Shown: positions 1 to 32,457 of the stretch, in pieces | Layout: each line of letters starts with the position of its first letter | Position numbering within the stretch: position 1 is the stretch's first letter | From: a virus | Virus record (IMG/VR): IMGVR_UViG_3300046010_004118 | Span: 1-32,457 of that record | Length of the DNA: 32,457 bases | Strand: one strand, 5' to 3' | Position numbers and translations under genes: made by a program | The notes under the pieces: generated by a model | What the model was told of the DNA's origin: nothing | The model's database searches: none | Seen by the model: the letters and a program-made list of their open reading frames with translations, nothing else

Positions 1-397
1 GGTTGCATGCATAATCTATGAAAATGATTCTTTCCTTTCGGAGTTGAGATGAATATGACTTTCTTTCCTTTGACCAGGACAGTTGCACTCAAGACCTCAT
101 CCCACAACTCTGGTCTGGTGAAAGCCATCTCATCCACCACCATATAGTCAAAGGTGTTGCCTCGGATGTTATCTGGTCTCTCACCTGAAAAGAATTCAAT
201 TGTGGAGCCAAAGCCAGTGACCAATAAATCTGACCGATTGAAATTAAACAAGCCACTCTTTGCAACTGCTCTCTCAAGATCAGCGAATACTTTCTTGCCT
301 TGCTTATAAACTGGAGTGACCCAAGCTATGCGACAGCCTTTATCATTGATAGCCCACCAAAGTAGTTGATTGATTCCAAGCAAGGTCTTGCCAAACT
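1..397. repeat. Left copy of the terminal overlap
   Basis: Aligns without gaps to 32061-32457. Bases 237-397 are identical to 32297-32457; bases 1-236 carry 18 substitutions. The overlap lies inside terL. Only two amino acids differ (V/I and T/N), so the differences look like strain variation under selection. This supports a circular or circularly permuted genome assembled from a mixed population. Confidence 0.9.
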
Positions 398-500
398 GCC
401 TACCAATGTTGAGAGCATAATACTTCTCATGGCCATGGTTGATGGCATCATGAATCTCTCGCTGTTTGTCATGTGGTTTGTAACCTTTGACTGTTGACAT
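1..500 (-). CDS. terL: Terminase large subunit, N-terminal part (continues at 32060)
   Basis: ATP-driven DNA packaging motor. This stretch encodes about the first 166 residues, from the ATG at 500, and runs off the left edge. Visible motifs are the Walker A GRQFGKT at residues 33-39 and the Walker B ending in VVDEMAF (D123-E124), followed by an ISTPKGK coupling-motif-like segment. Because 1-397 matches 32061-32457, joining the ends gives a 400-residue protein with the nuclease half at 31358-32060; the frame is kept exactly (500+703 = 1203 nt). The start follows directly on a terminator and a TATCTTTG box. Certain as TerL; the split is an assembly edge, not a gene break. Confidence 0.93.
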   Translation of the reverse strand, partial: MSTVKGYKPHDKQREIHDAINHGHEKYYALNIGRQFGKTLLGINQLLWWAINDKGCRIAWVTPVYKQGKKVFADLERAVAKSGLFNFNRSDLLVTGFGSTIEFFSGERPDNIRGNTFDYMVVDEMAFTRPELWDEVLSATVLVKGKKVIFISTPKGKNHFHRLCMQ

Positions 501-504
501 TAAA

Positions 505-512
505 CAAAGATA
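505..512 (-). promoter_or_regulatory. Candidate -7 box of the terL (late) promoter
   Basis: On the minus strand this reads TATCTTTG, a perfect match to the Bacteroidetes TANNTTTG -7 box. It lies between the T-run of the preceding terminator and the terL ATG, only 4 nt from that ATG, so a start at the usual distance would give a leaderless mRNA. No TTTG -33 box is seen at the expected spacing. terL needs its own promoter because a terminator sits directly upstream, and the same layout recurs at 18041-18048 and 21329-21336. Confidence 0.4.
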
Positions 513-572
513 ATAAAAAACCCGCTAAGTGTGGGCGACCAGGGACTCCCTAATCCATTAACCATAGCGGGT
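513..572 (-). terminator. Terminator ending the early/middle operon
   Basis: On the minus strand ACCCGCTA (572-565) pairs perfectly with TAGCGGGT (527-520) and is followed by a T-rich run, TTTTTTATT. The 37-nt loop contains a second small hairpin (AGGGA/TCCCT), so the element may be a more complex RNA than a plain terminator. It sits between the small terminase candidate and terL. The local CpG content is high compared with the surrounding genes, as expected for a structured RNA. Confidence 0.7.
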
Positions 573-620
573 GTATTGAGTGACTTGGTAACTGTTCTAA
601 TGGTAAGTAGCCAAGTACTA

Positions 621-1016
621 TCATTCAAAGTCGAACTTCTCTACATTCTTAGTCTCAAGTTGCTGGCGATCATGCATTCCAAATTTATTCTTAGCATAGA
701 ATATTCCCTTGCCTTCATTGGCCACAATGTTCTTTCCAAGAGCTATGAATTCACCGTCTATATTTTTAATAGTGTGACATTTGTCAGACTCTTCTCTCAA
801 CCATCTATACCATGTTCTCCTATCAATTAATTTCATTCCAAGTTTAATAGGAATCCATATCATTAAAAAGTAATCAATGGTTGGAATATGTCTATCAGAA
901 ACGAGTACAATCTCTCCCTTATTAGAGATCATCTCTTTTTTATTATTGAGACATTCTTGGATATACTCAAAGCCAAGATCCTCAAGTTGATCTATTATCT
1001 CTTGATTATATGCCAT
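621..1016 (-). CDS. Putative terminase small subunit
   Basis: 131-residue protein placed directly before terL in transcription order. The N-terminal third is helical; a central IPTIDYFLMIWIP segment is followed by RRTWYRWLREE, and the C-terminal part contains IVANEGKGIFYAKNKFGM. This order (recognition-helix-like part, then a conserved NEGKGIFYAKN stretch) is what I recall for small terminase-like proteins of Bacteroidetes phages. By that role it would recognise the packaging site and load TerL. It is the last gene of the early/middle unit, cut off from terL by the terminator at 513-572. The function rests on remembered family likeness plus position. Confidence 0.6.
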   Translation of the reverse strand: MAYNQEIIDQLEDLGFEYIQECLNNKKEMISNKGEIVLVSDRHIPTIDYFLMIWIPIKLGMKLIDRRTWYRWLREESDKCHTIKNIDGEFIALGKNIVANEGKGIFYAKNKFGMHDRQQLETKNVEKFDFE

Positions 1017-1055
1017 TTAGATACAATTATTCTCTTATAATATATTATTGTTCGA

Positions 1056-2123
1056 TTATTTACAATACTTAACATAAAACGTATATGGTAACACTTTCAT
1101 CTTAGTGAGTAGCCATAGGATAATTCTGTACTTTTTAAAGTCATATCTATCGAATTCTGACCGATCTCTCTTTCTGATGTTGATTAGTCTGAGCATTCTC
1201 TCTGCACTGGAGCCAAGCTTTGTGATATCGAATTCTGACTTTTTGTTGAACTGCTCCATGGCTTGCTCTTTGGTGAGCTTGCCACTTCTCACTTGTGCAG
1301 CAAGATAGACAATACGCTTATCAATGTCGAACTTTTCAGGGAGGAGGAATGATCCAACAAACTCAGTATAAACATTCTCGCAATGCTTGCCACCATAATC
1401 TTGCCAGTTGATTAGTCTCTTCATTTCAGCCTCCATTGAGTCTCTATCAAATCCATAGTGAAATGGTCTGACATTCTTAATTCCTAATGCAGCATAGAAT
1501 AGTTGATCCTTGAAAGTGAAGAGAGGATAGTTCTGGAGTCTAAGTCCAGAGTATTTGTTATAAACTGATTGAATGTATTTGGCATCCATATAAGTCCAAC
1601 CTTTTGGAGTTGATCCTTCAGTTCTGAAATCATGACCATTGAGAATGTATTTGATGTTGTACTTGAATGCAGTATCATACATCAGTTTGGTCATTGCAAT
1701 ATCATTTGGAATATCAGCATCTGGAACGCCAGCCCATAAGAATGCATCATTGAGTCTATCGTATTCCTCCTTATTCACAGTATATGTAATTGAGTCAACT
1801 CCGAGGAGCTTGACCAGTTGAGTCATATTGTGCACAGCTTCAGGAGCATTCCAATGATTGTCGAAATGAATCACCAATGGTCTCAATCCCCAGTATTTCA
1901 CAGCTGTGAATAATAGAGTTGAGGAGTCAATACCTCCAGAGATTCCCATGATGCAGTCATAGGTCTTGTCTCTACCTTTCTTTTTAATCTCTTTTACAAT
2001 GAACTTCAGCTCAAGAGGATTGGCTTGTCTCTCCAGCTCATCATGAAGATCACAGTATTCACATTGCTCATCACCTATATGAGCTATGGTCTCATTAAAC
2101 AAACAGCGTTGACATTCTTTCAT
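1056..2123 (-). CDS. N-acetyl sugar amidotransferase-like PP-loop protein (WbpG/PseA type)
   Basis: 355 residues from the ATG at 2123; an upstream in-frame start at 2171 is rejected because it adds an unlike leader inside the previous gene. A four-cysteine knuckle (C4, C7, C21, C24) is followed by the PP-loop SGGIDSS at residues 62-68, which binds ATP for adenylation. Further landmarks are NGHDFRTEG, a WTYMDAKYI segment and YGGKHCENVYTEF, all typical of the family that turns acetamido groups on surface sugars into acetamidino groups. In bacteria such enzymes receive ammonia from HisH/HisF-like partners; none is seen here, so host partners or free ammonia would be needed. Overlaps the preceding glycosyltransferase gene by 29 nt, so co-translated with it. 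Family assignment is strong; the substrate is unknown. Confidence 0.85.
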   Translation of the reverse strand: MKECQRCLFNETIAHIGDEQCEYCDLHDELERQANPLELKFIVKEIKKKGRDKTYDCIMGISGGIDSSTLLFTAVKYWGLRPLVIHFDNHWNAPEAVHNMTQLVKLLGVDSITYTVNKEEYDRLNDAFLWAGVPDADIPNDIAMTKLMYDTAFKYNIKYILNGHDFRTEGSTPKGWTYMDAKYIQSVYNKYSGLRLQNYPLFTFKDQLFYAALGIKNVRPFHYGFDRDSMEAEMKRLINWQDYGGKHCENVYTEFVGSFLLPEKFDIDKRIVYLAAQVRSGKLTKEQAMEQFNKKSEFDITKLGSSAERMLRLINIRKRDRSEFDRYDFKKYRIILWLLTKMKVLPYTFYVKYCK

Positions 2124-2832
2124 AGTTAACAAAGTTATGATAAATTTTACTAATATACACATTATCCACATGCCGAGTGGAATACTCTCTCATGATTGAT
2201 TGGCAGATGTCATCCACTGACTGCCAAGGGATAGAGGCTGGCAGATCACCATTAAATATTGAACGCCTTCCCATGAGTCCCATTTCAATGTTGGTATTTG
2301 GACAGCCATCATGTGGAGTCAGTCTGAGATTCAGAAAGCATTGAGCATAGACATCAAAGATCTCTGACTTTGCGAATGTATCATGACCAGCTCTGATGAT
2401 AGGGATGTTGATTCGTTCTTTGATTTCGTTGATTAGCTCTTGACCATAATACTCTGGAGCATTTCCAGAATACCAGAATATCTTATCTCCATTTGGCACC
2501 AATGGATAGTGATGTGGAATGACTGCATTGATAGGACACCAGATTGCCTCCACTCCTTTGGATGCCAAAGTCTCAAGGACTTGATGACTGACAGCAATGT
2601 TGACTGATTCTTTCACAAACTTAATCCAATCATCTGGCAGATCCTTGGCATCTGATCCAAACCAAACAATTGTGCTTGCTCCAAGATGTGTTGCCAACAT
2701 GACAAGATCCTCCTCTCTGTACATGCCCATGAACAGAGTATCAATGATCGGTGATTCGTATGCTGTTAAGTTAAATTTTTGAATGAGTCCTTTGTCAAGA
2801 CCAGCAAGAGATTCTGAGATATGTGCTTGCAT
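2095..2832 (-). CDS. GT-B-fold glycosyltransferase-like protein
   Basis: 245 residues. The pattern resembles the GT4-like phage proteins: an N-terminal half with LVMLATHLGASTIVWFGSDA, then a nucleotide-sugar-binding-like half with KIFWYSGNAPEYYG, IPIIRAGHDT and PNTNIEMGLMGRR, the last resembling the sugar-nucleotide-contacting E(x)nE region of GT-B enzymes. Starts with a 1-nt overlap on the stop of the upstream GT2 gene (TAATG) and runs 29 nt into the amidotransferase gene, so the three form one sugar-modifying unit. Donor and acceptor cannot be read from the sequence. Confidence 0.7.
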   Translation of the reverse strand: MQAHISESLAGLDKGLIQKFNLTAYESPIIDTLFMGMYREEDLVMLATHLGASTIVWFGSDAKDLPDDWIKFVKESVNIAVSHQVLETLASKGVEAIWCPINAVIPHHYPLVPNGDKIFWYSGNAPEYYGQELINEIKERINIPIIRAGHDTFAKSEIFDVYAQCFLNLRLTPHDGCPNTNIEMGLMGRRSIFNGDLPASIPWQSVDDICQSIMREYSTRHVDNVYISKIYHNFVNYERMSTLFV

Positions 2833-3530
2833 TATAATAGTTGTTTAATTTCACTAAACTCTTTATCCAATAGACTGACATTACATCTCTCTGACTTCAG
2901 AGATCCAGTCCAATGATCGGTGAATTTATGTTTGTTATTCCATTTGTTTGTCGAGATGGATAGCAGTTGAACTGAGTTGTCACATTCCAAGATTCCAATG
3001 TCTTGGTTGCTCTTCATAGCCTTGAGCCACATTGACCAATCAAGACCAGAGTTGAGTTGACCATTGAATGGAGTCCAGTTGATAGCCTCCAGGAATTCTC
3101 TATTTAAAAATCGACCAATGCCGATTGGCTCATTCTGCCTCATCTGATCCTTGTATCCTTTCCAATGCACAAGTCTGATTGACTCAGAGACATCAGCAAA
3201 GTGACAGCCAAGTTGACCAATCATTCCAAAGTCCTTGCTGTGCTCCTTGCATCTTTGAATGTATCCATCACTGCACCAGTCAGATGATCCCATAAAGATG
3301 ACAGCATCAGCATTGTAATTCTTTGAGGCTTGGAATCCTTTATTCCATTTGTTGCCAAGAGGATCATTGTCAATGGAGATGAATTCAACCTCCATTTGCA
3401 TGGCAATATCCATTGCCTCTCTCTCATGGCCTAAAATTATCGGAGTTACTCCTTGGCTCTTAAGTCTTGAGATAGTTAATCTGACAAGAGGAAATCTACC
3501 AAATACTGGTATCGGAGCTGTGACTATCAT
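2832..3530 (-). CDS. Family 2 (GT-A) glycosyltransferase
   Basis: 232 residues. Begins with the short beta-strand opening of a GT-A fold (MIVTAPIPVFGRFPLVRLTI), followed by NDPLGNKWNKGF, a signature I know from phage GT2-like proteins, and VIFMGSSDWCSDGY, where SDW stands in the place of the metal-binding DxD. Acceptor-side features such as LNSGLDWSMW follow. First member of the three-gene sugar cluster in transcription order. Likely transfers a sugar to a host surface glycan or a phage component; which one is not shown by the sequence. Confidence 0.78.
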   Translation of the reverse strand: MIVTAPIPVFGRFPLVRLTISRLKSQGVTPIILGHEREAMDIAMQMEVEFISIDNDPLGNKWNKGFQASKNYNADAVIFMGSSDWCSDGYIQRCKEHSKDFGMIGQLGCHFADVSESIRLVHWKGYKDQMRQNEPIGIGRFLNREFLEAINWTPFNGQLNSGLDWSMWLKAMKSNQDIGILECDNSVQLLSISTNKWNNKHKFTDHWTGSLKSERCNVSLLDKEFSEIKQLL

Positions 3531-3763: not shown

Positions 3764-3962
3764 AGATCAATATTAAGTCAGATAATAAATAGCTGATGAA
3801 TGCCAAGCCAACAAGATGCCAATCAAAGAATGATGCAGCAATGACTGATATCCAAAAGGATAGACAGCTCTGACAACTGAATGGTTTCATATCAGGAAGA
3901 TTGAAGCTCTGGAGAGCTCTCGCAAATCCTATTGGTAGAGTTATTATAATCAGATAAATCAT
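3750..3962 (-). CDS. Small integral membrane protein with KPFSCQSC motif
   Basis: 70 residues with two or three hydrophobic segments: residues 1-12, about 33-47 and about 50-66. Between the first two lies MKPFSCQSCLSFW, a cysteine-pair motif I recall in small phage and bacterial membrane proteins of unknown role. Its 5' end overlaps the sigma-like gene by 71 nt and its 3' end overlaps the CxxC protein gene by 14 nt. It could help anchor products of the neighbouring sugar genes at the membrane, but that is only a guess from context. Confidence 0.55.
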   Translation of the reverse strand: MIYLIIITLPIGFARALQSFNLPDMKPFSCQSCLSFWISVIAASFFDWHLVGLAFISYLLSDLILIYESK

Positions 3963-4398
3963 ATTTAAATTGTTTAATTGCTAAGTGAATAGTATCAAGA
4001 CTGATGCCAGTCAATGTTCTTATCTCTCTGTATGTCATCCCCATCAGATGCATCTTAGTAATCTCTTTGGTGAACATTTTCTGATCATCTTCAGGACTCT
4101 GATGAAGATAGTCATCCAAGAGCTCTTGAGCTGTTGTGACTTCGTATGCCTCATCATCTGATTGCCTTGAGTCCATATCTGGGAGCTCATAATGTGTCTT
4201 GAATAACTTATTGAATGTGGAATCCCTCCAGTTGTACTGGTTGTATGCATATCTTGCGAATACCCTTGGAAGATCCTCTTGTCTGATGCTAAGCTCATGC
4301 ACCAGTAGATAGACGTGGCTGACCAAGTCTGAAGATATTGGATTCCCTCCAGTGATTTTACTGGCAATGAGATAGGCTTCTTTTTTCCAAAATTCCAC
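3892..4398 (-). CDS. Sigma-70-like factor / HTH regulator
   Basis: 168 residues, starting at GTG (4398); an in-frame stop just upstream leaves no ATG choice. The N-terminal part (SSDLVSHVYLLVHEL, then RVFARYAYNQYNW) resembles sigma region 2; an acidic linker follows; the C-terminal part MGMTYREIRTLTGISLDTI is a region-4-like helix-turn-helix. The last 20 or so residues are encoded in the overlap with the membrane protein gene and look low-complexity. A phage sigma factor would fit the unusual late promoter candidates, which have a good -7 box and no -33 box. A non-sigma HTH regulator is the alternative. Confidence 0.55.
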   Translation of the reverse strand: MEFWKKEAYLIASKITGGNPISSDLVSHVYLLVHELSIRQEDLPRVFARYAYNQYNWRDSTFNKLFKTHYELPDMDSRQSDDEAYEVTTAQELLDDYLHQSPEDDQKMFTKEITKMHLMGMTYREIRTLTGISLDTIHLAIKQFKYDLSDYNNSTNRICESSPELQSS

Positions 4399-4407
4399 AT
4401 CGCTAAG

Positions 4408-4626
4408 TTATGATATTTTAGAATACCATTTGAACCACTTGATATAGAAATCCTCAGAGACCTTTGACTCATTCATGAATCTCCAGAGCTGAGTTGTATT
4501 GACTCCAATATCCTCAGCTATATGGATCTGCTTATATCTGTTGCTGATTCGTGACTTTGTTTCTCTAATCATCCATTCCTTGATGTTGTCATCTGGATTC
4601 TTGAGATAGATTGTTATGGTTTTCAT
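4408..4626 (-). CDS. Small HTH-like protein
   Basis: 72 residues from the ATG at 4626. A longer in-frame reading to 4764 is rejected because that part overlaps another gene in a different frame. The centre, IHIAEDIGVNTTQLWRF, reads as a helix-turn-helix, and the protein ends in an aromatic, basic tail (FYIKWFKWYSKIS). The ATG overlaps the stop of the upstream membrane protein gene (ATGA). Probably a small DNA-binding regulator; no family recognised. Confidence 0.55.
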   Translation of the reverse strand: MKTITIYLKNPDDNIKEWMIRETKSRISNRYKQIHIAEDIGVNTTQLWRFMNESKVSEDFYIKWFKWYSKIS

Positions 4627-4781
4627 TTTTTGAATCTTATTAATACCAGCCAGAATGTGGTTAGTGCTATAAAAGTGAATATGCCAATTACTCCAAAGAA
4701 ATAATACAAGCCATAATAAAACAACCCTATGCCTGTCATCAACAAGCATAGAGTCAAAATCCAAGCGATTATGTCTTTCAT
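4623..4781 (-). CDS. 52-residue membrane protein (short, hidden gene)
   Basis: Reads MKDIIAWILTLCLLMTGIGL at its start and continues to residue 52, nearly all of it hydrophobic with two probable transmembrane helices (about 3-22 and 27-48) and a basic end, IRFKK. Both junctions are tight: its ATG overlaps the stop of the DUF3127 gene (TAATG), and its stop overlaps the ATG of the HTH gene (ATGA). This chaining argues that it is a true gene despite its size. Function unknown. Confidence 0.65.
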   Translation of the reverse strand: MKDIIAWILTLCLLMTGIGLFYYGLYYFFGVIGIFTFIALTTFWLVLIRFKK

Positions 4782-5050
4782 TAGAATAGAGTTGATTCTA
4801 TTTTGTAAGCATTGAGAGTATTGTAGTACTTACCATTGTACTCTCTACCTCTCAAGTCAAATGACAGCTCAACCTCTTCACCAATTGCCAACATGTTCAC
4901 ATCTTGAATGCGATCATTGGCCGCTTGGAATTGAACTTTCTGAGGATACTTCTCATCTGGAGTCTGAATAACGAAATCCATTACTCTGAACTTTTCAGAG
5001 ACTTGCTTTGCATCTCCTTTGTGGATTAGCTTTCCTTTTAGTTTATACAT
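4781..5050 (-). CDS. DUF3127 single-stranded-DNA-binding-like protein
   Basis: 89 residues from the ATG at 5050. It shows the DUF3127 pattern: GKLIHKGDAKQVSEKFRVMD, then FVIQTPDEKYPQKVQFQ, then FDLRGREYNGKYYNTLNAYK. DUF3127 is an OB-fold family common in Bacteroidetes and their phages, where it appears to take an SSB-like role. Its position after ERF and the YqaJ-like nuclease fits a DNA replication and recombination set. A longer reading to 5098 adds 16 residues but starts inside the upstream inverted repeat region and is less likely. Confidence 0.85.
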   Translation of the reverse strand: MYKLKGKLIHKGDAKQVSEKFRVMDFVIQTPDEKYPQKVQFQAANDRIQDVNMLAIGEEVELSFDLRGREYNGKYYNTLNAYKIESTLF

Positions 5051-5077
5051 GATATTTAATTTACATTGTTTAATAAA

Positions 5078-5131
5078 CCCCCTGTCTGTATTATTCAATT
5101 TACTTCCCAGGTTTTTGATTTGAACAGGGGG
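5078..5131 (-). other. Inverted repeat upstream of the DUF3127 gene
   Basis: CCCCCTGT (5078-5085) and ACAGGGGG (5124-5131) are perfect 8-base partners with a 38-nt loop. On the minus strand the second arm is followed by TTTATTAAAC, a weak T-run, so this may be a leaky terminator or a structured leader. The size matches the elements at 520-572 and 10308-10363. Confidence 0.5.
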
Positions 5132-5147
5132 GTGTTAATTACACAGT

Positions 5148-5168
5148 TCAATTGCCGATTTTGAACGG
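5148..5168. promoter_or_regulatory. Operator-like inverted repeat
   Basis: GTTCAA and TTGAAC arms separated by 9 nt, with another TTGAAC nearby at 5120-5125. It lies in the 141-bp gap between the YqaJ-like and DUF3127 genes and could be a regulator-binding site. Only the symmetry supports it. Confidence 0.25.
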
Positions 5169-5191
5169 TGTTTGTTACAGCTTACCAGAGC

Positions 5192-5812
5192 CTACTTATT
5201 ATTTAACTGATTAATATACTGGCTGTAATATTCACTTGCTGCTGTGAGCTTCTCTTTCATTTCATCAATTGCATCTGGAATCATCGCATATTTCAACACT
5301 GTGATTCTCTTGGCTGAATCAATATGACTCACCTTGTGAATGGATCTATTGTCCCAGTCATTGAGCAACAAGTCATCTGTATCTATCATGCAATAGATTA
5401 GCTCAGCTTGTGGCTTATCAAGGAGCCAACAGTATCCGATAAGTTGCCACATGTAATCCTTATTCACTCCTTCACCTGGAGTCGCTGGCCAAGTCTCAAG
5501 GGACCAAGATGTCTTGATATCAATGATGCAATCATCCAGGATGATATCTGGCTGTCCAGTTAGATATTCATTCTCAAATCTTTCATTATTCTTGACATAG
5601 AATGTGCCTCTCACTTGATTAACCAGAGCAATAGATTCCTCCTCCCAATCAATACCTTTTAGCATTGGCTTTGTTGTGATGGATGTTTTGAATCCAAAGT
5701 AATCCTCTTTTGCTTTCATTTTGATATAGCTCTTTGCAGTTTCAGATAATATCTCTGACTTTGCCTTTGGCTGAGTCATGAGCTTTCCTAATGATGATGG
5801 ATGCCATTTCAT
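5192..5812 (-). CDS. YqaJ-like PD-(D/E)XK recombination nuclease
   Basis: 206 residues. The core reads TGQPDIILDDCIIDIKTSWS (about residues 90-110), the D...(D)xK catalytic signature of the lambda-exonuclease/YqaJ fold, followed by a helix with YMWQLIGYCWLL, the usual Q-x-x-Y-like position. As a 5'-3' exonuclease it would make single-stranded DNA for the ERF annealing protein encoded just upstream. The ATG lies inside the last codons of that gene (4-nt overlap), which fits coupled translation of a two-part recombinase. Confidence 0.78.
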   Translation of the reverse strand: MKWHPSSLGKLMTQPKAKSEILSETAKSYIKMKAKEDYFGFKTSITTKPMLKGIDWEEESIALVNQVRGTFYVKNNERFENEYLTGQPDIILDDCIIDIKTSWSLETWPATPGEGVNKDYMWQLIGYCWLLDKPQAELIYCMIDTDDLLLNDWDNRSIHKVSHIDSAKRITVLKYAMIPDAIDEMKEKLTAASEYYSQYINQLNNK

Positions 5813-6321
5813 AATTGTGCCTCCTGGTCCTTAGTTAGTGAATAGCTTGACTTTAATTGATCAAGAGTATACTTTCCTTTACTGATTGCATCAAGAGCTT
5901 TCTTGAATTGCTCATCTGATAATGATGGATTCGGAGCTTTCACTGTTGCTGTTGCTGAGTTACCATCATCATCCACTGACTGCAATGCCAATAGTGACTG
6001 CAATGTCCCTCTGCGAAAGTAAGTAATGGCTCCGAGTAGTTTCTGAGGATCAGTGATCTCTGGCAGTTGCATCCAAGACTCAATCATATCACCAGAATCA
6101 ATGTCAATTATCTGAGTGAATACAATGTGATCCTTCACTGGCTGCAATAGGACCAAGCCATTCTCATGGAGGATTGGCTCAACTGTCTCAAGCAATGCAT
6201 TGATATCAGCATAGGACTTTTTAAAATGTGGATTCGTGGCATTCTTAGCCACCTTTCCAATGTTCATCTTGGCCATGTGGAGCTTAGCCCACAATGACCG
6301 ATTAAAAACTTGCTTTTCCAT
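5809..6321 (-). CDS. erf: ERF-family single-strand annealing protein
   Basis: 170 residues. The ERF signature is clear: NATNPHFKKSYADINALL near residue 28, ILHENGLVLLQPV, and TDPQKLLGAITYFRRGTLQS near residue 90. ERF proteins anneal complementary single strands in phage recombination and genome circularisation. The C-terminal 40 residues are a charged tail of the kind that often contacts SSB-like partners; DUF3127 is encoded nearby. Paired with the YqaJ-like nuclease by a 4-nt overlap. Confidence 0.88.
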   Translation of the reverse strand: MEKQVFNRSLWAKLHMAKMNIGKVAKNATNPHFKKSYADINALLETVEPILHENGLVLLQPVKDHIVFTQIIDIDSGDMIESWMQLPEITDPQKLLGAITYFRRGTLQSLLALQSVDDDGNSATATVKAPNPSLSDEQFKKALDAISKGKYTLDQLKSSYSLTKDQEAQL

Positions 6322-6339
6322 TTATGTTGTTTTTAGGTT

Positions 6340-6839: not shown

Positions 6840-6856
6840 ATATCATTGTGTTTATT

Positions 6857-7949: not shown

Positions 7950-7950
7950 A

Positions 7951-10270: not shown

Positions 10271-10307
10271 TATCGTAAAAAGAAAATTGCCCCACCAAAT
10301 CCACAGG

Positions 10308-18691: not shown

Positions 18692-19663
18692 TTAGTTAGG
18701 TGAACCAGTTCCATTCCACACTCCGATTTGGCTCAAGAAAGGTACCTGAACACCAGCCCTGAACTTAGAACGTAGGTAGATCACATCATCATCTTGAGAA
18801 TACCACAAGTCAAAGTTTTCAAAGTCTGAGCTTAAGTCAGTACCGAATACAAATTGAGATGCACGTCCAGTGTAGATGTTATCAAGACCATTCAAACCAT
18901 TAACCTTAACGATTCTCATGTTTGTTCCTGGAAGGATTAACTCATTCAAGTCACCAATGTTAGCTGGATTGTAGTGGAATAAGTTATCATCAACCAAGTT
19001 CTTAGTCAAGAAATTAAAGTTCTCACGTCCAGTAAAACAGATAAAGTCATTAGCCTCAGCAACATTTGCTGGAGTATTAACGAAACACTCATAGAAAACA
19101 TCAAAAGCATTAGATGCAGAGATTGTTGCTGTTGATGATGTATTCAAGTTAACACAACCATTTGCTGTTGTTAAGAATTGACGGAATCCATTCATCTTAG
19201 ATAAGTTACCAGAGCCAGTTGCTTTGTTACCTTTCCAGATTAACTTGTCTAATTCAAATGAATGTAATTGTAATAAGTAGTTGATGATTTGAGCTTCAAA
19301 TGGAAGAGTCTTATCTTCAGCCATAGCTCCTGGACGTAGACCTAACTGAGTCCAGAATCCATCAAGATCCTTTTGACAAAATGATTTCATGTAACCAAGA
19401 GTCTCAACAGCGATAGCTCTATCAGTGAATACAGTATCTCCATCTGGAGTCATTGTACAATCACCATCTTGGTAAACAATTGAATCATCCATCAATTTCA
19501 ATTCTTGAGATCCTTTGATCCCTTGTTGAATTGATACATATTGTAATGTGCGAGCTTCAGTTACTGACTTAACAATTAAGTCTTCTCTTTGCTCATCAAC
19601 ATAAGCTGCAAGACCAGATACATCCCAGTCGAATTTTGTGCGTAGGTATTTTTTTAACGACAT
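18692..19663 (-). CDS. Major capsid protein
   Basis: 323 residues. The N-terminal arm (KKYLRTKFDWDVSGLAAYVD) is followed by VKSVTEARTLQYVSIQQGIK, a capsid-like long beta hairpin region, then TDRAIAVETLGYMKSFCQKD and a C-terminal domain ending in FRAGVQVPFLSQIGVW. Position after the scaffold and before a terminator supports the call. It differs in codon use from its neighbours: arginine is often CGT or CGC (for example in TGRENF, TGRASQF, LRPGA), and I count 14 CpG in 972 bases, far more per kb than in the tape measure. This is expected if codon choice follows high expression. Confidence 0.85.
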   Translation of the reverse strand: MSLKKYLRTKFDWDVSGLAAYVDEQREDLIVKSVTEARTLQYVSIQQGIKGSQELKLMDDSIVYQDGDCTMTPDGDTVFTDRAIAVETLGYMKSFCQKDLDGFWTQLGLRPGAMAEDKTLPFEAQIINYLLQLHSFELDKLIWKGNKATGSGNLSKMNGFRQFLTTANGCVNLNTSSTATISASNAFDVFYECFVNTPANVAEANDFICFTGRENFNFLTKNLVDDNLFHYNPANIGDLNELILPGTNMRIVKVNGLNGLDNIYTGRASQFVFGTDLSSDFENFDLWYSQDDDVIYLRSKFRAGVQVPFLSQIGVWNGTGSPN

Positions 19664-20415: not shown

Positions 20416-21318
20416 TTATTGTTCGAAAATCCCTAATTCTTTTAGCTTAGCCTCTGACCATCTCTTTGCAGCAAGCCCACCCCATAATAAATAGGAGATA
20501 GTTCCACAAGCTGATTGGTCACTCTCATCATAATATTCCTCAGCTCTGGATAGATAAGAATACATTCTTTTGATCACAGCCACTGAGACCGTTTGTCTAT
20601 TGGCCAAAGTTGTTGCTCTTAAACGTCCTACTCTTGTGGCACATTTATTTCCATACTTTTGATTGAGCTCAATTCCTTTCTTGGCATTGTTGCTCACAGC
20701 TTCAGGATAGTCATTGTAAAATGTGATATATTCCTGGACCTTCTTAAGCTCTTGATATATGGTTGAGAATTCATGCTCCCACCCTTTACCAGTCTCAAGC
20801 AATTGGAAAACTCCCTCAATTGAGAATCCAGTGAACATGCCAGCCTTGGCTGCATCATAGACATCCTTGTTTGTTACCTTATAACTCACAATCCAAGAGC
20901 CATCATTCTCATCCTTGAATCTTTCTGGAGCGGTGAATCCTTTTGACTCATCAATTATATATGACATTATCATGTATATACCATCAACCACTCTCTTGCT
21001 ATCATGCTCAAGATTAACATTGTTGAAATTCTCTCTCCTGGCATAATCAAAAACAATATCCTTGATTGATGATGGTGAAAAGTTCACATAATATTCCTCA
21101 CCAGATTGAGGATCTCTCCTAAATATGGGAGTATTCGCAGATATAGCAACTCCAGTGATGACTTGCTCCTCATCATTAAACTGATAAGCAATCTTTTTGG
21201 AGAATGTTTCAAATGATTTCTCATGTGCTGGATTAGCCACAAGGCTGTTGAATGATACTGTTGTCTCTGGATCATCAAGATCTATGAGAATATCATATAG
21301 TGGTAACTCTCTAAGCAT
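20416..21318 (-). CDS. XkdF-like prohead serine protease with C-terminal extra domain
   Basis: 300 residues from the ATG at 21318; a reading from 21366 adds 16 unlikely residues over the start of the plus-strand gene. Residues 1-175 show the XkdF/S78-like protease: FSPSSIKDIVFDYARREN, the catalytic H105 in NVNLEHD, and S166 in GMFTGFSIEGVF. Residues about 200-300 are a separate domain (VSNNAKKGIELNQKYGNKCA, then TTLANRQTVSVAVIKRMYSY and SYLLWGGLAAKRW) that I recall fused to several phage head proteins, with unknown role. Processes scaffold and capsid. Confidence 0.78.
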   Translation of the reverse strand: MLRELPLYDILIDLDDPETTVSFNSLVANPAHEKSFETFSKKIAYQFNDEEQVITGVAISANTPIFRRDPQSGEEYYVNFSPSSIKDIVFDYARRENFNNVNLEHDSKRVVDGIYMIMSYIIDESKGFTAPERFKDENDGSWIVSYKVTNKDVYDAAKAGMFTGFSIEGVFQLLETGKGWEHEFSTIYQELKKVQEYITFYNDYPEAVSNNAKKGIELNQKYGNKCATRVGRLRATTLANRQTVSVAVIKRMYSYLSRAEEYYDESDQSACGTISYLLWGGLAAKRWSEAKLKELGIFEQ

Positions 21319-21328
21319 AATTATTATG

Positions 21329-21336
21329 TATATTTG
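21329..21336 (+). promoter_or_regulatory. Candidate -7 box for the plus-strand gene
   Basis: Reads TATATTTG, 6 nt before the ATG at 21343, in the 24-bp gap between two divergent starts. No -33 TTTG is seen. This gene cannot be read from either minus-strand unit, so it needs its own promoter. Confidence 0.4.
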
Positions 21337-21342
21337 TTCGAA

Positions 21343-21990
21343 ATGATTTTTGTTTATCCATATCATTCAAGAGCTGAGTCTGACTTTGAAATCAAGCAAT
21401 CTATTGCAATGGTCCTCAAAGTTTATCCTGGTGCAGAGATCTGGACAGTTGGCAAAGCTGTGCCAGGAATCAACAACATACCATGCACTCAACACAACAA
21501 CATCAGAGGCTGTGATGTGACCAATAGGATCCTGACCTTTGCCAAGAAAGTTGGAGGAGAGTTTATCTATATGAACAAAGATTTCTTTATCACTCAGTCA
21601 TGGCAGCCACATGTGGCTATCAACATGAAGAGCCTCATTGTCAATGATGACCATCCTCCACATACAAAGGTAGCTCAGTCAAATACATTGGAATTCCTCA
21701 AGCATAACAGCTTTACAGCTTACAATTATGAGACACATACTCCATGTGTAATGGATAGCAAAAAACTGATTGAACTATTTGACAATATCAACTGGCAGAA
21801 TGATAACCATTTTATTAAGTCAATATATTGTAATGTTTACCAGGTACCATCAAAGGAAGGATTCAATTGTAAGGTATCAACTCCATCCATTGCCAAAGCT
21901 CAAGAGTTCATTGCACTCCAGGGATGTTTCTCAACTGGAGATCAGTTCTGGAATAAGCCTTGTGTTGAATGGATTAAAAGCTTGACTTAG
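21343..21990 (+). CDS. Stealth-like / glycosyltransferase-like protein (only plus-strand gene)
   Basis: 215 residues from the ATG at 21343 (a TTG at 21334 is the longer choice). The protein opens MIFVYPYHSRAESDFEIKQS, followed by IWTVGKAVPGINNIPCTQ and, near residue 85, GGEFIYMNKDFFITQ. The order (paired start strand, VG-x-x-P near residue 40, then FIYMN-D-FFI) resembles Stealth-type hexose-phosphate transferases and related glycosyltransferases. Its last 17 bases overlap the end of the tape measure gene on the other strand. It looks like an inserted cargo gene with its own promoter. The enzymatic call is moderate. Confidence 0.55.
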   Translation: MIFVYPYHSRAESDFEIKQSIAMVLKVYPGAEIWTVGKAVPGINNIPCTQHNNIRGCDVTNRILTFAKKVGGEFIYMNKDFFITQSWQPHVAINMKSLIVNDDHPPHTKVAQSNTLEFLKHNSFTAYNYETHTPCVMDSKKLIELFDNINWQNDNHFIKSIYCNVYQVPSKEGFNCKVSTPSIAKAQEFIALQGCFSTGDQFWNKPCVEWIKSLT

Positions 21991-24619
21991 CCTCTTGTAC
22001 TTGCACCTTGTTTTGAGTGCCAGTGATGTCAGATTCTAAGACAACCACTTGTGATGTCATTGTCTGACCTTGTTGACCTTGACCAAGCTGATTCAAGTCA
22101 GTTGTCTGAGCTTGTGTGTTGGCTGTGAATGAACTTGCACCAGCTCCACTCAATGCACCGCCACCTCCAGATGATAATTGTGGAGGAGTGGGAGCTGAGC
22201 CAGCTTGATACTTTTGATTCATGATGGCCATTGCTTGAGTGATTCCAATCAATGAGGCTGATGCAATTGCAGCAATACCAGCTGGAGATGGAGGTGGCCC
22301 AAATTGTGCAATACCTTTGACAATGGCTGAGGCTGTATCAATACCAACCTGTGCCAATCTTAGAGCCTTGTCTCTTGCAAATTGTGCTTTCTTAATTTTC
22401 TCCTCTTCATTGTAGGCTTTCAACTGCACTTGATACTTTTGTTGTGCAAAGTTTTCCTCAATCTGTTTCTTTTGATCAGCAGTCAATCCCTCTTGGCTAA
22501 GTTGTGCCTGGAGATTCTTGTCAAGATTAGCAAGATCTGCATCTCTATTCTCAGCTATTCTGTTTAATCTTGCTTGATCTATCTCATTGACAAGAGCATT
22601 GATTTTCTTAAGTTCATCCAATCCTTTCTGAGCTCCCTCAATTGCATCTGTCACTCCCTTAAGTTGCTCCTCTCTTGCCTTAATTGCATTGGCCTTTGCT
22701 TGATCATCATATTTTTTATCAAGCTCTGCTTTCTTTATTCTGAATTGTTCCTGAGCTTTTAAGTTAGCATCATAGAATTCCTCCTCATCAATAGCCTCAG
22801 CTTTGAAAGCTGCCAAGTTCAATGCCTCTTGTTTTTTCAATGCCTCTTCCAAATCAAGCAATTCATTCTCTCTATCAGTATTTAAGAATCTTTGCAATTG
22901 ATCTCTTAATGATTTTTTCTTAGCCTCATTCTCTGCAATCTTGTCAAGCTCAATCTGGTTATACTTATTGACAATGGCAATTCTTTCAGCTGCCTCTTGC
23001 ACAGCAATTTGTGACAATAACTCAGCATTGCCATGAGCTTGATCTCTAAGCTTGTCATACTTCATGGTTGATAGCAAAAGCTCCTTCTCTTGATTCTCAG
23101 CCATCAAGTCAAGACTCAATTGGAATTGTTCATCCTCAGCCTTGATTCTATCCTCATTTGCTTTACGTTCAATCTCAGCCAATCTCTCAGCTTCTTTCTT
23201 GGCATCCTCTCTCCTCTTCTCAGCTCTTGCCTTGGCCTTGTCAGATCTTGCTTTTGCAGCATCATCATCTTTCTTGTCTTGCTCAATTCTTAATACCTCA
23301 AGATCCTGAGCATTCTTTTTATTAACCTTGAATTGTTCAAAACTGTTTTTCTTTGCATCCTTAAGTGACTTCTCAAGTTTCTTAGCTCTGTCACTATCAG
23401 CATCTCCTGTTGCCTTGAGTAGTTTAATCTCAGCCTCATATGCTGCAATCTTTTGCTTTTGCATTTCAAGGATGGCTCTTCCTGACTTAAGAGCTGCCTT
23501 AAGTTTTTTCTCCTCCATTTCCTCAGTATTCTTTCCAGCAGCTTGTGCTTTTCGAATCTCAAAGGATAGATTGTCATCAACAGCTTGAGCTTTTTTCTTT
23601 TCAGCTGCAATCTTTTTATTCATCTCTTTCTCAGTGGCATCAGTCTTGGCTCTTGCATTTTTTTTCATCTTTGCAGTTTGCTCATCATCAACCACTCCAA
23701 AATATTCAAGAGCTTTAATCACTCCATATATAACAGCAATGAAAGGAAACATAACACCGATTACAATCTTAACTGCTGGTCCAAGTTTATTAAACCAGTT
23801 GTAAGCTTTCATAACAGCTGCTGAGACCTTGTCAAAGTTGGCAATGAGTAATCCAACAGCAACAACAATAGCACCAATACCAGTTGCAATCAAAGCTATT
23901 CTGAATAGCTTCATCCCAGTAGTTGCTGTGCTTGTTGCTGCAGCAAGGGATACATTTGCTGTGGCTTGTGCCTCAGTTGCTGCTGCATTTGCCAATGCTG
24001 GTGCAATAGATCCAGTCAATACAAATTGCTTAGCCTTCTCAAGACCATTTCTTAATTGCAAGCCAAGAATTGACTCCTTATTCAAGTTATTTGAAATGAT
24101 ACTAACTGAGTTGACTAATCCCTGGACAGCTTGCAACTTAACCATTGTCTCAGTTAAAGCCTCAGACTCAACACCAGTCAATGCAACTGCTGATTGAATA
24201 CCTTGGAATGCAGCTGCTCCAGTCTCAACTCCTTGCAAAGTTGTATCTAAGCCAACAAAGTCAGATGACAAAGCTGTTGTCTGAGCCTTAAGATCACCAA
24301 TCTCATCCTTAAGATTTGCAGCGTTTCTAATTGCTTGTGCTCCAATAGGACTCTCAGCTCCAGCCTGAGCTGCCAAGTTCTGATAGTCCTTCATGGTCTT
24401 GGTCAACTCCCTCATAGTAAGTCCACCAGCCTCAACTCTTGCATTTAGTTCCTGAAGTTTTTGGTCAAAGGTATCAATGCCAGTACTATCTGCTGCTGTT
24501 TTTTGTGTTGCCTTGAGATCTTGATTCAAGTCATTAACAGCTGCATCCATGGCCTGAATGTCATTAACACTATTTCCAGTGTTAACCTTGAGTGAGAATA
24601 CAACTGACTTCTCTGCCAT
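21974..24619 (-). CDS. Tail tape measure protein
   Basis: 881 residues. An N-terminal helical region (1-180) is followed by two hydrophobic segments near residues 240-262 (LIATGIGAIVVAVGLLIANF) and 285-303 (IVIGVMFPFIAVIYGVIKAL), a very long K/E/A-rich coiled coil (about 310-730), a hydrophobic A/G-rich part (SAIVKGIAQFGPPPSPAGIA) and a Q/S/G-rich end. This sets tail length; it also suggests a siphovirus-like or myovirus-like long tail. By hand count it has only 5 CpG in 2,646 bases. Confidence 0.88.
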   Translation of the reverse strand: MAEKSVVFSLKVNTGNSVNDIQAMDAAVNDLNQDLKATQKTAADSTGIDTFDQKLQELNARVEAGGLTMRELTKTMKDYQNLAAQAGAESPIGAQAIRNAANLKDEIGDLKAQTTALSSDFVGLDTTLQGVETGAAAFQGIQSAVALTGVESEALTETMVKLQAVQGLVNSVSIISNNLNKESILGLQLRNGLEKAKQFVLTGSIAPALANAAATEAQATANVSLAAATSTATTGMKLFRIALIATGIGAIVVAVGLLIANFDKVSAAVMKAYNWFNKLGPAVKIVIGVMFPFIAVIYGVIKALEYFGVVDDEQTAKMKKNARAKTDATEKEMNKKIAAEKKKAQAVDDNLSFEIRKAQAAGKNTEEMEEKKLKAALKSGRAILEMQKQKIAAYEAEIKLLKATGDADSDRAKKLEKSLKDAKKNSFEQFKVNKKNAQDLEVLRIEQDKKDDDAAKARSDKAKARAEKRREDAKKEAERLAEIERKANEDRIKAEDEQFQLSLDLMAENQEKELLLSTMKYDKLRDQAHGNAELLSQIAVQEAAERIAIVNKYNQIELDKIAENEAKKKSLRDQLQRFLNTDRENELLDLEEALKKQEALNLAAFKAEAIDEEEFYDANLKAQEQFRIKKAELDKKYDDQAKANAIKAREEQLKGVTDAIEGAQKGLDELKKINALVNEIDQARLNRIAENRDADLANLDKNLQAQLSQEGLTADQKKQIEENFAQQKYQVQLKAYNEEEKIKKAQFARDKALRLAQVGIDTASAIVKGIAQFGPPPSPAGIAAIASASLIGITQAMAIMNQKYQAGSAPTPPQLSSGGGGALSGAGASSFTANTQAQTTDLNQLGQGQQGQTMTSQVVVLESDITGTQNKVQVQEAKSSF

Positions 24620-24849
24620 TAATTTTCAATTGGTGGGAAAGGTGGAGTTGGTTTTGGTTTGTAAGGGCTCAAAGGAATATCTAATAAATAAGAATACTCC
24701 GTGTTTGCGATGTCCAATTCATCCTGCTCACTTAAAAATAAAAAATATACATCATTAATATCTTGAACGAAATTAAAAAATGTATCAGCGTCAAAGAATA
24801 CTCCTTGTAAATCTTCCGCTTGTTGGTTTGTTACTATTCTACCTTCCAT
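24619..24849 (-). CDS. Small tail-fibre-linked protein
   Basis: 76 residues, helical centre (ADTFFNFVQDINDVYFLFLS) with a proline-rich end (SPYKPKPTPPFPPIEN). No family recognised. It is joined by single-base overlaps to the tape measure gene and to the fibre gene. Like the fibre gene it is not CpG-depleted, so it probably arrived with that module. A fibre chaperone or assembly factor is possible. Confidence 0.55.
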   Translation of the reverse strand: MEGRIVTNQQAEDLQGVFFDADTFFNFVQDINDVYFLFLSEQDELDIANTEYSYLLDIPLSPYKPKPTPPFPPIEN

Positions 24850-25655
24850 TATACTTGTCTACTTAAAGTTGTTTGATATGCTTGTACAGCTGTGTAAAAG
24901 TTAGCCGCTTCAGTGTCTGTTAGTCCGTCTCCTATTGAACTAAATGCTATTTCATTATTAAAATAATTAGCGTTATTTCTTGAAGCACCTATATACATAC
25001 TGCTTGTATTTAAGGCACTTGAATTAGTTGTAGAATTAAATATTTGTGTAGTATTTACTCTATATTTTTTTACGTTAGCCCCTGTTCTAATAGCTATATG
25101 AAACCCTCTCACATCATAAGTAACTATTGCAAAATCACTAAAACTGTCATTTACTCTTATTGAATATTGATTTGCAGCTTGTTTTGGCCAGATATATAAT
25201 CCATTATTATAACTTCCAGCATCTTCGCTACTTATAATTGGTCCTGGTGAATTTATATTATTTCTAATGTAACCTGATATATGCGTTGAATTTAAAGATA
25301 AAATAGAATTCGGTATTAATGATGTGTTTGCATAAGCACTTGAGCCATTTGGCAGCATTCCCGTTGCTGAATGTGTCCAGCCAGTGGTAAAAGTCAAGTT
25401 AAATGTGCCAGGCGTTTTAAGATTAACGGCATGACTTGAAGCTACTCCACCTACTATTGGATATATCGCTTTAAACTTTGTCCAAATTGAATACCCTTTC
25501 AAGTCAACTACCAAAGTATTAATAGCACTTTGTTGAGTAGGGTTAGTGATTGAAGCCGCTGTTATGAATGCTTGAGCATCTGGGTCTATACCCCCGCTTG
25601 GTCTCGCTAATATTCCGTGTGTTGCTAAGAACATACTATTTCCGTATCCTATCAT
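24849..25655 (-). CDS. Tail fibre / receptor-binding protein with LamG-like domain
   Basis: 268 residues from the ATG at 25655, which overlaps the stop of the upstream gene (ATGA); a TTG at 25667 is the alternative. The N-terminus carries GGIDPDAQAFITAASITNPT and VVDLKGYSIWTKFKAIYPIV, a module I know from Bacteroidetes phages and prophages. The middle is a concanavalin/LamG-like sandwich (HISGYIRNN to MYIGASRNNANYF), and the C-terminus is IAFSSIGDGLTDTEAANFYT. It likely binds a host surface glycan. Codon use and CpG content differ sharply from the flanks, indicating recent exchange. Confidence 0.7.
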   Translation of the reverse strand: MIGYGNSMFLATHGILARPSGGIDPDAQAFITAASITNPTQQSAINTLVVDLKGYSIWTKFKAIYPIVGGVASSHAVNLKTPGTFNLTFTTGWTHSATGMLPNGSSAYANTSLIPNSILSLNSTHISGYIRNNINSPGPIISSEDAGSYNNGLYIWPKQAANQYSIRVNDSFSDFAIVTYDVRGFHIAIRTGANVKKYRVNTTQIFNSTTNSSALNTSSMYIGASRNNANYFNNEIAFSSIGDGLTDTEAANFYTAVQAYQTTLSRQV

Positions 25656-25918
25656 AATACTAAACAAACCGAGCCAGATGTCAATGTGACTCCACTGAAC
25701 TTGGCTCCATTAATAGGTCTGATGATTGCTCCAGCTTTCACTGCTGTGCCAGTTGCTGCAATGTAAGTTGACTTAACATCACTGCCAGCAACTCTAATTG
25801 CTGAGAATACTGTATCCTCCAGCACCACAATTGCATCATGATCAACAGTCTTTGCTGCTGTATTATTAACTATGAAAGTTCCTTGTTGTGCTGTGAGCAC
25901 GCTATTTCCTATTGCCAT
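25652..25918 (-). CDS. Small beta-rich tail/structural protein
   Basis: 88 residues: short strands with regular spacing (GTFIVNNTAAKTVDHDAIVV, DTVFSAIRVAG, GTAVKAGAIIRPINGAKFSG). I recall similar proteins in Bacteroidetes phages near tail fibres. Probably a virion protein at the fibre or baseplate. CpG-poor, unlike the following fibre gene. Confidence 0.55.
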   Translation of the reverse strand: MAIGNSVLTAQQGTFIVNNTAAKTVDHDAIVVLEDTVFSAIRVAGSDVKSTYIAATGTAVKAGAIIRPINGAKFSGVTLTSGSVCLVL

Positions 25919-25928
25919 TTTTATTTAT

Positions 25929-30076: not shown

Positions 30077-30581
30077 TCTTTGTAAAATTTATTTCAAACA
30101 TTAAACCAGTGAGCTCTGCCAAATCATTTCCAATCCTTTCAAGGACTTGATCAGTGATGACATTCTCAGTGATTCTCTTTGGTTGCAATCCTCTTTGCTT
30201 GATGTTGGATGCCACAGCATAAGCATGACTCATATCCAACCCTTTCCACTGGCTGATGGCTGTTGCCATATTGTGAGATACTCCAGGATAGTTGAATGAG
30301 AATTGACTGCCATAGTTGTTGGTGCCAACAGCATTGACTCCCTCATCAACAAATGGAAAGTAATCCTCAGCCTCTAATCTGAATGACAGCTGTCCAGTTG
30401 GTACCGGAATGATTGAGGCTGCCAATGCTCCAGTATTCTGAGCAACTCTCTTTGTGTAATCTCTGAACTCCTCAGCAAGCTGATTGGAAAGGCCAATGAT
30501 AAACCTATCATAAGCATTCTGTGGCTGCTCAGCATCCTGAGTAGTTATTCCAAAGTCCTCAAGAAAATCAAACTCAGCCAT
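30057..30581 (-). CDS. HK97-gp10-like tail completion protein
   Basis: 174 residues. The helical N-terminus (SNQLAEEFRDYTKRVAQNTG) is followed by strands including LSFRLEAEDYFPFVDEGV, and a closing helix. The F-V-D-E-G-V strand is a hallmark of gp10-like proteins. Its ATG lies inside the end of the -1 frame of the chaperone gene, and its end overlaps the 394-residue gene by 20 nt. A minor head or tail-joining role fits, although it is far from the other head genes. Confidence 0.62.
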   Translation of the reverse strand: MAEFDFLEDFGITTQDAEQPQNAYDRFIIGLSNQLAEEFRDYTKRVAQNTGALAASIIPVPTGQLSFRLEAEDYFPFVDEGVNAVGTNNYGSQFSFNYPGVSHNMATAISQWKGLDMSHAYAVASNIKQRGLQPKRITENVITDQVLERIGNDLAELTGLMFEINFTKNGSNNI

Positions 30582-31361
30582 TTCTTAATATGCGTTTTTG
30601 TTCGTTCTCATCCACTATCCTAAAATAGTTCATCCAGAATAATGTTGTCACATAAGGCTGTTGTGTAACCTTTGCCACACTGAGTCCCATTTCTTTGGAT
30701 AGTCTATGAATGATAGTGGTCCAACTGAACCACTCTGAATCTTTAAGTCCTGCTCCATCATCATCATTTCCATCCTCTGCCTCGCCATCTGTATCCCTAA
30801 TATAGCGAGCCTCCGCTTGTCCGATAAGTCCAAAAAAAAACTGAAGAAATTTAAGAACTCATCACCTGGAAAGTTTTCCTTGAATTCCTTGTATCTGGTT
30901 TCATTAGGATTCAGCACTCTTCCTCTATCATCCTCCTGGCAATACTCCATGCCTTTCTCAACATACATAATTGCCAATGCTTGACATGGATCTTGGCTGA
31001 TATCCTCAATCAGTTTCAAGTCAATGATCTGACCAGTTGAGACATGACCAAAGTTTTTCTCAAAGCAATACACCTTGCCATTCACCTCAATCTCAGACTT
31101 TGGCTCCTGGTATTTATAAGTAACCAACAACTGGAGGAGATGGTTGGCAGCAACTTGAATTGATTCAATATCAGCTCGCTTGATCTTGTTGATTGACTCT
31201 CCACTGAATAGACTGAGCAACTGACATTGGAAGATTAACAGCTGAGTGATGTCATCATCTCTCTGCTCTTTCATTGCCTCGGCCATCATCAGCCAGCGAG
31301 TCATCTGTTCAGGGGTGCATGCTGATAGTGTGGTTGGTAGTTTTATCTCAAGTTGTTTCAT
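30574..31361 (-). CDS. Tail assembly chaperone, frameshifted long form (predicted)
   Basis: The unshifted frame (31361 to 30648, 237 residues) opens MKQLEIKLPTTLSACTPEQM and reads as a helical chaperone up to NFFSFF (residue 176). There a run of nine T permits a -1 slip. The -1 frame then stays open for 86 more residues: an acidic linker (EAEDGNDDDGAG), a tryptophan pair (SEWFSWTTIIHRLSKEM) and VAKVTQQPYVTTLFWMNYF, ending at 30574 after overlapping the next start. That C-terminal pattern is typical of the T part of gpG/gpGT-type chaperones, while the unshifted end looks like a shadow. A sequencing indel is the rival explanation. Product 262 residues if shifted. Confidence 0.65.
30834..30840 (-). 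promoter_or_regulatory. Slippery heptamer for programmed -1 frameshifting
   Basis: The coding strand reads T TTT TTT, an X XXY YYZ site in the correct phase (zero-frame codons 175 and 176 are TTT TTT), inside a T9 run (30840-30832). No downstream pseudoknot was modelled; the following 70 bases are G/A-rich. Confidence 0.55.
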
Positions 31362-32457
31362 ACTCTCAAAGCCATATATCTTCCTCGGTTTGTGAATTCC
31401 TTTCTGCTATGCCAAGCCAATGCAGTTGACATCACTCCATCATCATGCAATCCAGCTGGTGCAGAATAACTCACATTCCTGGTATTCGGATTGTAAATAT
31501 AGGAAAAATTATCAAGCTCATCTATCAACCATTGCTCATTGATAATTGAGATAGCTTGTTGCTCGAATGCCACAGCCAAGTCCTCAATGATGATTGGTTT
31601 TGTTTTGGAGCTTGTCACAAATGGATGAATCAGATTCTTGCACCTTGCCTGGAGCATCTCAAAGAACACATCTCCTTGATTGTTCACCTCCACCAATGTG
31701 ATGGCATTGTATTGCTTAATCAACTCAGCAACCTTGTCAATTATCCTGGTCCATTCATCATGCCTCCATCTATCAGCCGTCACCATCTGACCATCTTGAT
31801 TGAGGATGGATAGCACAGTGTAGTCATCAGCTCGGCCAATGTCAAGACCAGCGAACATCTTTGGAGTCTTGGATGCCGAGCCAATGCACTCATGAACATT
31901 CTTGAATATACCAGATGCATTATCAATGAACTCAGCCAAATACTCTTGTCTGAACACATGATCAGGCAATGACCTCTTCCTTTCATCCAATTCTCTTGGA
32001 TCAATCATAGGATTGTCATAAGATGAATAATGAAAGTAGGCATAGCGATCATCATAGTTTGGCTGCATGCATAATCTATGAAAATGATTCTTGCCTTTTG
32101 GAGTTGAGATAAAGATAATCTTCTTTCCTTTGACCAGGACAGTTGCACTCAAGACTTCATCCCATAACTCTGGTCTGGTGAAAGCCATCTCATCCACAAC
32201 CATATAGTCAAATGTGTTACCTCTGATATTATCTGGTCTCTCACCTGAAAAGAATTCAATTGTGGAGCCAAAGCCATTCACCAATAAATCTGACCTATTG
32301 AAATTAAACAAGCCACTCTTTGCAACTGCTCTCTCAAGATCAGCGAATACTTTCTTGCCTTGCTTATAAACTGGAGTGACCCAAGCTATGCGACAGCCTT
32401 TATCATTGATAGCCCACCAAAGTAGTTGATTGATTCCAAGCAAGGTCTTGCCAAACT
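31358..32457 (-). CDS. terL: Terminase large subunit, C-terminal part and right-end copy
   Basis: Runs off the right edge and continues at 500-1. The nuclease half is clear: LDIGRADDYTVLSIL holds the first catalytic aspartate, TLVEVNNQGDVFFEML an acidic residue, and GLHDDGVMSTALAW the final D pair of the RNase H-like fold. The segment that repeats the left end contains the Walker B (VVDEMAF). The stop overlaps the chaperone ATG (ATGA). Unique sequence is 31358-32060; the rest duplicates 1-397 with 18 changes. Confidence 0.93.
   Translation of the reverse strand, partial: FGKTLLGINQLLWWAINDKGCRIAWVTPVYKQGKKVFADLERAVAKSGLFNFNRSDLLVNGFGSTIEFFSGERPDNIRGNTFDYMVVDEMAFTRPELWDEVLSATVLVKGKKIIFISTPKGKNHFHRLCMQPNYDDRYAYFHYSSYDNPMIDPRELDERKRSLPDHVFRQEYLAEFIDNASGIFKNVHECIGSASKTPKMFAGLDIGRADDYTVLSILNQDGQMVTADRWRHDEWTRIIDKVAELIKQYNAITLVEVNNQGDVFFEMLQARCKNLIHPFVTSSKTKPIIIEDLAVAFEQQAISIINEQWLIDELDNFSYIYNPNTRNVSYSAPAGLHDDGVMSTALAWHSRKEFTNRGRYMALRV
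32061..32457. repeat. Right copy of the terminal overlap
   Basis: Partner of 1-397. Identical from 32297 onward; 18 substitutions in 32061-32296, of which three remove a CpG found in the left copy. All differences but those giving two amino acid changes are silent. Confidence 0.9.

Follow-up and report, generated by a model that had tools for sequence, protein, structure and literature searches.

CpG depletion is usually taken as damage left by methylation, or as immune evasion in the case of animal viruses. Where phages rely on the host for replication, they have been reported to converge on its dinucleotide signature, and CpG-poor prokaryotes are known (PMC3308326), which makes an ordinary host-signature reading the likeliest one for the phage described here. 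Five cultured Bacteroidota phages have CpG ratios of 0.93, 0.73, 0.96, 1.09 and 1.54, and searches of the literature available to us found no report of CpG-poor Bacteroidota phages. Here, we describe a large family of bacterial viruses in which substitution rates can separate the causes of CpG depletion. New CpG sites are removed, or seldom arise, whichever mutation would create them, and the shortage probably reflects a host-linked genome habit and not the decay of methylated DNA.

The window, i.e., the whole stretch of DNA analysed, is a virus record of 32,457 bases. Its two ends overlap by 397 bases with 18 differences. The window is therefore probably almost a full phage genome, ∼32.06 kb long, whose assembly ran on beyond its starting point and drew on a mixed population. 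The 18 mismatched positions indicate that the record joins two strains of such a population. Three of the 18 (positions 39, 164 and 236) alter a CpG, as an earlier note on this DNA had counted; position 39 is the sole C/T (deamination-type) change among them, and the other two are G/T. The features needed below are as follows.

1–32457, whole phage genome; CpG ratio 0.185, every 1-kb block depleted
1–397, first copy of the terminal overlap; matches 32061–32457
4781–5098, minus strand, DUF3127 single-strand binding protein (SSB); a marker of Bacteroidota phages
5192–5812, presumed exonuclease, between the ERF and DUF3127 genes
5809–6321, minus strand, ERF recombinase; gene order as in Nonlabens phage P12024S
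8033–10270, minus strand, primase-helicase (Prim-Pol + DUF3987); used for a family tree
15562–17526, minus strand, portal protein; distant matches, included in the substitution test
18692–19663, minus strand, major capsid gene (PHROG 11320)
21974–24619, minus strand, presumed tape measure gene, from position and length; no family match
24619–25667, minus strand, two tail-region genes nearly free of CpG depletion (ratios 0.82 and 0.66)
31358–32443, minus strand, terminase large subunit
32061–32457, second copy of the terminal overlap; matches 1–397

Several other regions of the window merit mention. An N-acetyl sugar amidotransferase-like gene (TIGR03573, slightly under the cut-off) and two neighbours occupy 1056–3530 on the minus strand and probably serve to modify surface sugars. 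For the amidotransferase, 192 relatives occur in viral contigs and none in cultured phages. Between 6799 and 7970, a 44-nt unit (core TTCATTCTATTCTGATTTAAAGGTTT) occurs five times at the junctions between small genes arranged in a row; four of these genes end in ...FKSE. The repeats may be copies of a leader or the unit of a duplication. The single sizeable plus-strand gene (21334–21990) lies between the tape measure and protease genes and has no Pfam match. The PHROG label 'DNA methyltransferase' on 20416–21366 is misleading, as this gene encodes a head protease of the XkdF type. Scans for Rfam families in the window and for tRNA genes, as host tags, in the window and 43 related loci gave no match, and PADLOC returned only generic HTH matches for ten window proteins.

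CpG is about five times too rare in the window, with 209 observed against ∼1,130 expected (symmetric ratio 0.185), and the ratio stays below 0.5 in every 1-kb block. The computed ratios thus bear out the extreme depletion that the earlier note had claimed for most of the genome from counts in single genes. Its counts of 5 CpG in the 2,646 bases of the tape measure gene (106 expected; 0.05) and 6 in the 2,238 bases of the primase-helicase gene (65 expected) are exact. The abundance of TG and CA that it reported corresponds to a TpG/CpA ratio of 1.43, and its remark that arginine codons are mostly AGA or AGG holds for 334 of the 387 in the window. TpA stands at 0.62, GpC at 1.12 and GC content at 37%. 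All sixteen NCGN contexts are depleted, as are all codon phases (0.27 at positions 1–2, 0.14 at 2–3 and 0.18 at 3–1). In 200 shuffles that permuted synonymous codons while holding proteins and codon usage fixed, 471 ± 15 CpG fell on codon boundaries, against the 86 observed; the depletion therefore far exceeds both chance and codon choice. Non-coding DNA of the window contains 20 CpG where 56 are expected (0.36), and three CpG-poor clades pooled have 0.22 of the expected CpG in non-coding and 0.18 in coding DNA. The earlier suggestion that structured RNA regions are richer in CpG is weak in light of these values and of the absence of Rfam matches in the window. Two tetranucleotides are also rare: GCGC is avoided beyond the CpG depletion in loci of the window's clade, c6 (11 against 144 expected), and CTAG is almost missing from the window (1 against 36). 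The hosts may possess HhaI-type restriction.

Two parts of the genome depart from this pattern. The earlier note described the capsid gene as richer in CpG, and its count of 14 in 972 bases is exact (33 expected). Synonymous CpG in this gene is nevertheless as depleted as elsewhere (C before G, 0.06), and the surplus is mainly in CGN arginine codons; half of the 14 lie in CGT or CGC codons. Across clade c6, capsid genes use 295 CGT, 103 CGC and 12 CGA codons against 350 AGA or AGG, whereas AGA and AGG supply about nine tenths of the arginines in portal and tape measure genes. The preference resembles the effect of ordinary translational selection on genes of high expression, and suggests that CGT and CGC codons are read well in the host. 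The second departure is the tail region at 24619–25667, probably an exchanged tail or host-recognition module from phages of another signature. One of its genes (24849–25667) carries 16 CpG, 0.66 of expectation, and in 22 CpG-poor loci its homologues avoid CpG only slightly (C at 0.13 before G and at 0.18 before other bases). This gene and its homologues argue that CpG is probably not strongly toxic to the phage.

To place the window among its relatives, we collected 146 related loci from two capsid scans of IMG/VR, besides one genome hit, and 160 further loci from amidotransferase and primase scans, partly on the same contigs as the capsid loci. Across more than 200 related loci, the CpG ratio ranges from 0.07 to 1.5 and tracks clades. 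Clades of the capsid tree have ratios of 0.18 (c6, which includes the window), 0.13, 0.12, 0.15 and 0.46, and one clade divides into two monophyletic parts, one low in CpG (23 loci, below 0.31) and one high (19 loci, above that value). In clade c2, a CpG ratio of 0.15 goes with a TpG/CpA ratio of only 1.10. Many primase relatives at 52–60% identity have CpG near 1. The primase tree (52 rows, 49 different) requires two changes for low CpG, both forced by well supported branches, which shows that depletion arose at least twice on this tree. The depletion is thus clade-specific, stable inside clades and variable within the phage family, and it accompanies other clade-specific dinucleotide biases.

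The phage belongs to an abundant uncultured freshwater group, and a Bacteroidota host is well supported, at the level of the phylum, by its predicted genes and gene starts. The DUF3127 SSB has 104 matches among cultured phage records, from Flavobacterium, Cellulophaga, Nonlabens, Tenacibaculum, Maribacter, Bacteroides and Phocaeicola phages and a few other phage records. Among cultured phages, the portal protein finds distant matches in Nonlabens phages only, and the order ERF, presumed exonuclease, SSB is the same in Nonlabens phage P12024S. The Shine-Dalgarno motif is missing at nearly all gene starts in the window. A profile search of genome contigs with the capsid alignment returned a single locus, L082, and no host candidate of aquatic origin emerged from plasmid searches that used the amidotransferase, the primase, DUF3127 and two Spirosoma proteins. 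The L082 capsid is 70% identical to that of the window, its CpG ratio is 1.51 and it sits in a metagenome-assembled genome (MAG) labelled Enterobacterales whose own signature differs; L082 is probably mis-binned. We rejected this MAG as a Bacteroidota host, as the Por secretion domain occurs in no genome sampled from its phylum. L082 also has a reversed gene (3810–4469, minus strand) in the same place as the plus-strand gene of the window, which it resembles by eye.

Substitution rates between relatives distinguish how CpG is lost from how it is gained. We counted synonymous third-position differences by context, mostly in structural genes (the portal gene among them), between pairs of relatives on non-overlapping tree paths. 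Exit and entry rates come from unpolarised pairs of extant sequences with no ancestors reconstructed, and the test assumes near-stationarity within a clade. In clade c6, C changes to T before G at 2.15 times the rate before A or T (95% interval 1.80–2.52), and T changes to C before G at 0.131 times (0.110–0.153). G to A after C proceeds at 3.26 times and A to G after C at 0.123 times. Scaled selection coefficients of 2.8–3.3 predict exit and entry rates of 2.98 and 0.18 for the first pair and 3.41 and 0.13 for the second, while a hypermutable CpG predicts 16 and 1, and 27 and 1. All six synonymous single-base routes into CpG are suppressed 5–8 fold (0.135, 0.128, 0.140, 0.133, 0.200 and 0.164), including the four transversion routes (0.128, 0.140, 0.200 and 0.164). 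Loss of CpG by transition is just 2–3 fold faster, and exits by transversion show no increase (0.8, 0.8, 1.7 and 1.2). Were every mismatch before G counted as a gain, the entry rate would at most double and would still be ∼4-fold suppressed. At divergence below 0.02, a range in which little is hidden by saturation, we saw 12 and 10 differences in the two transition classes; hypermutation expects 81 and 42, and selection at a scaled strength of ∼3 expects 17 and 6. The C/T class in this range rejects hypermutation even with 95% of CpG frozen (P = 0.0015). In clades with milder depletion the pattern recurs at lower coefficients (1.4–2.5), and transition entry and exit rates lie near the selection prediction in four clades. 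Entry is also suppressed, more weakly, in CC/GG contexts, which means that the force extends somewhat beyond CpG.

The earlier note had offered three causes: cytosine methylation with deamination, a CpG-targeting defence and an unusual host genome. If the host or the phage methylated the cytosine in every CpG, 5-methylcytosine would turn to T and CpG would decay to TpG and CpA. The TpG/CpA excess in the window fits this, three of 23 related records (L321, L322 and L323, from clades of differing CpG level) carry a C5-methylase gene (PF00145), and the faster transition exits next to barely raised transversions would allow a modest contribution. Yet such decay should make CpG loss much faster while leaving its creation at the normal rate, and creation is suppressed by all routes. 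The low-divergence differences fall well short of the hypermutation expectation, clade c2 is CpG-poor without the TpG/CpA excess that should appear wherever CpG is low, part of the excess in the window is due to TpA depletion, and no C5-methylase was found in the window or in 20 of the 23 records. We therefore reject methylation decay as the main cause and give it little chance. Codon usage fitted to host tRNAs, with AGA for arginine and the like, or avoidance of restriction sites could be read from the AGA/AGG preference and from the additional avoidance of GCGC in c6, and we consider this almost certainly wrong. Codon usage as the sole cause is refuted by the deficit at codon boundaries with usage held fixed, and capsid genes favour CGT and CGC more than other genes do. 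Restriction as the sole cause is rejected because every NCGN context is depleted and not particular palindromes, with extra avoidance for GCGC alone; non-coding DNA is depleted too.

Our preferred explanation, held with somewhat more belief than doubt, is that the depletion is a heritable signature of certain clades, kept by a force directed at the CpG product, and that a CpG-poor Bacteroidota host most likely has it too. New CpG would be removed or blocked whichever mutation makes them, with kinetics as expected for weak selection (scaled strength ∼3) or an equivalent product-directed repair bias; both the sharing with the host and the choice between selection and repair are what we infer. 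The bias is genome-wide, present in coding and non-coding DNA and independent of codon choice. Among the larger window proteins scanned, none matched a replicative DNA polymerase family, although a Prim-Pol primase is present; the phage presumably relies on the host replisome, and its signature would then most likely be that of a CpG-poor host. Of the earlier note's causes, an unusual host genome would best explain a pattern that is clade-specific, stable and accompanied by other dinucleotide biases. Against this reading, pure selection does not explain the unraised transversion exits. Those exits, and the suppression of entry already at the lowest divergence, would suit context-dependent mutation or mismatch repair in a host replisome that rarely makes CpG, without selection; six chemically different mutation types would each need a 5–8 fold lowering precisely in the context that yields CpG, and we regard this account as unlikely, if worth keeping in view. 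A host defence that senses CpG in the DNA or RNA of the phage would make phages lose CpG by selection, and the host itself need not be CpG-poor. Such a defence would match the product-directed, selection-like suppression and its clade-specific strength (scaled coefficients 1.4 to 3.3). Nothing was found for it, however: the phage tolerates a tail gene with 16 CpG, of a kind met repeatedly in CpG-poor loci, the capsid gene, presumably the most expressed, holds the most CGN codons, and no bacterial system is known to recognise bare CpG. We judge it improbable. More broadly, and speculatively, some freshwater Bacteroidota might have a CpG-directed process, either a defence against the nucleic acid of phages or a repair system that clears new CpG irrespective of the mutation behind them. 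This process would have driven entire phage lineages, more than once, towards genomes free of CpG, with no cytosine methylation involved.

Sister clades that differ several-fold in CpG, together with creation suppressed on every route, make this family a tractable case for a long-standing open question, namely what holds genome signatures in place. The extreme composition may also serve as a tag for finding uncultured hosts.

Among known systems, the Karlin-type dinucleotide signature of host-replication-dependent phages (PMC3308326, PMC2917420) is likewise genome-wide, gene-independent, clade-specific, stable and spread over several dinucleotides, and the window phage likewise has no recognisable DNA polymerase. 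CpG in the window is far more extreme than in the five cultured Bacteroidota phages, and the likeness is drawn on the phage side of the host comparison that defines the Karlin case. Vertebrate-type 5-methylcytosine deamination resembles the window in combining low CpG and an excess of TpG/CpA, but here the creation of CpG is suppressed on every route, TpG/CpA is not in excess in one clade and no methylase is encoded in the window. ZAP-type antiviral sensing, which acts on RNA viruses of vertebrates, resembles our case in its selection-like removal of CpG; here, the virus is a dsDNA phage in a bacterium with no sensor known, its highly expressed capsid gene retains CGN codons and a CpG-rich module is tolerated. 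Nonlabens phage P12024S (Inhavirus) is a distant portal relative (∼20% identity) with the ERF, exonuclease and DUF3127 order in common, but it has a CpG ratio of 0.93 and a marine host.
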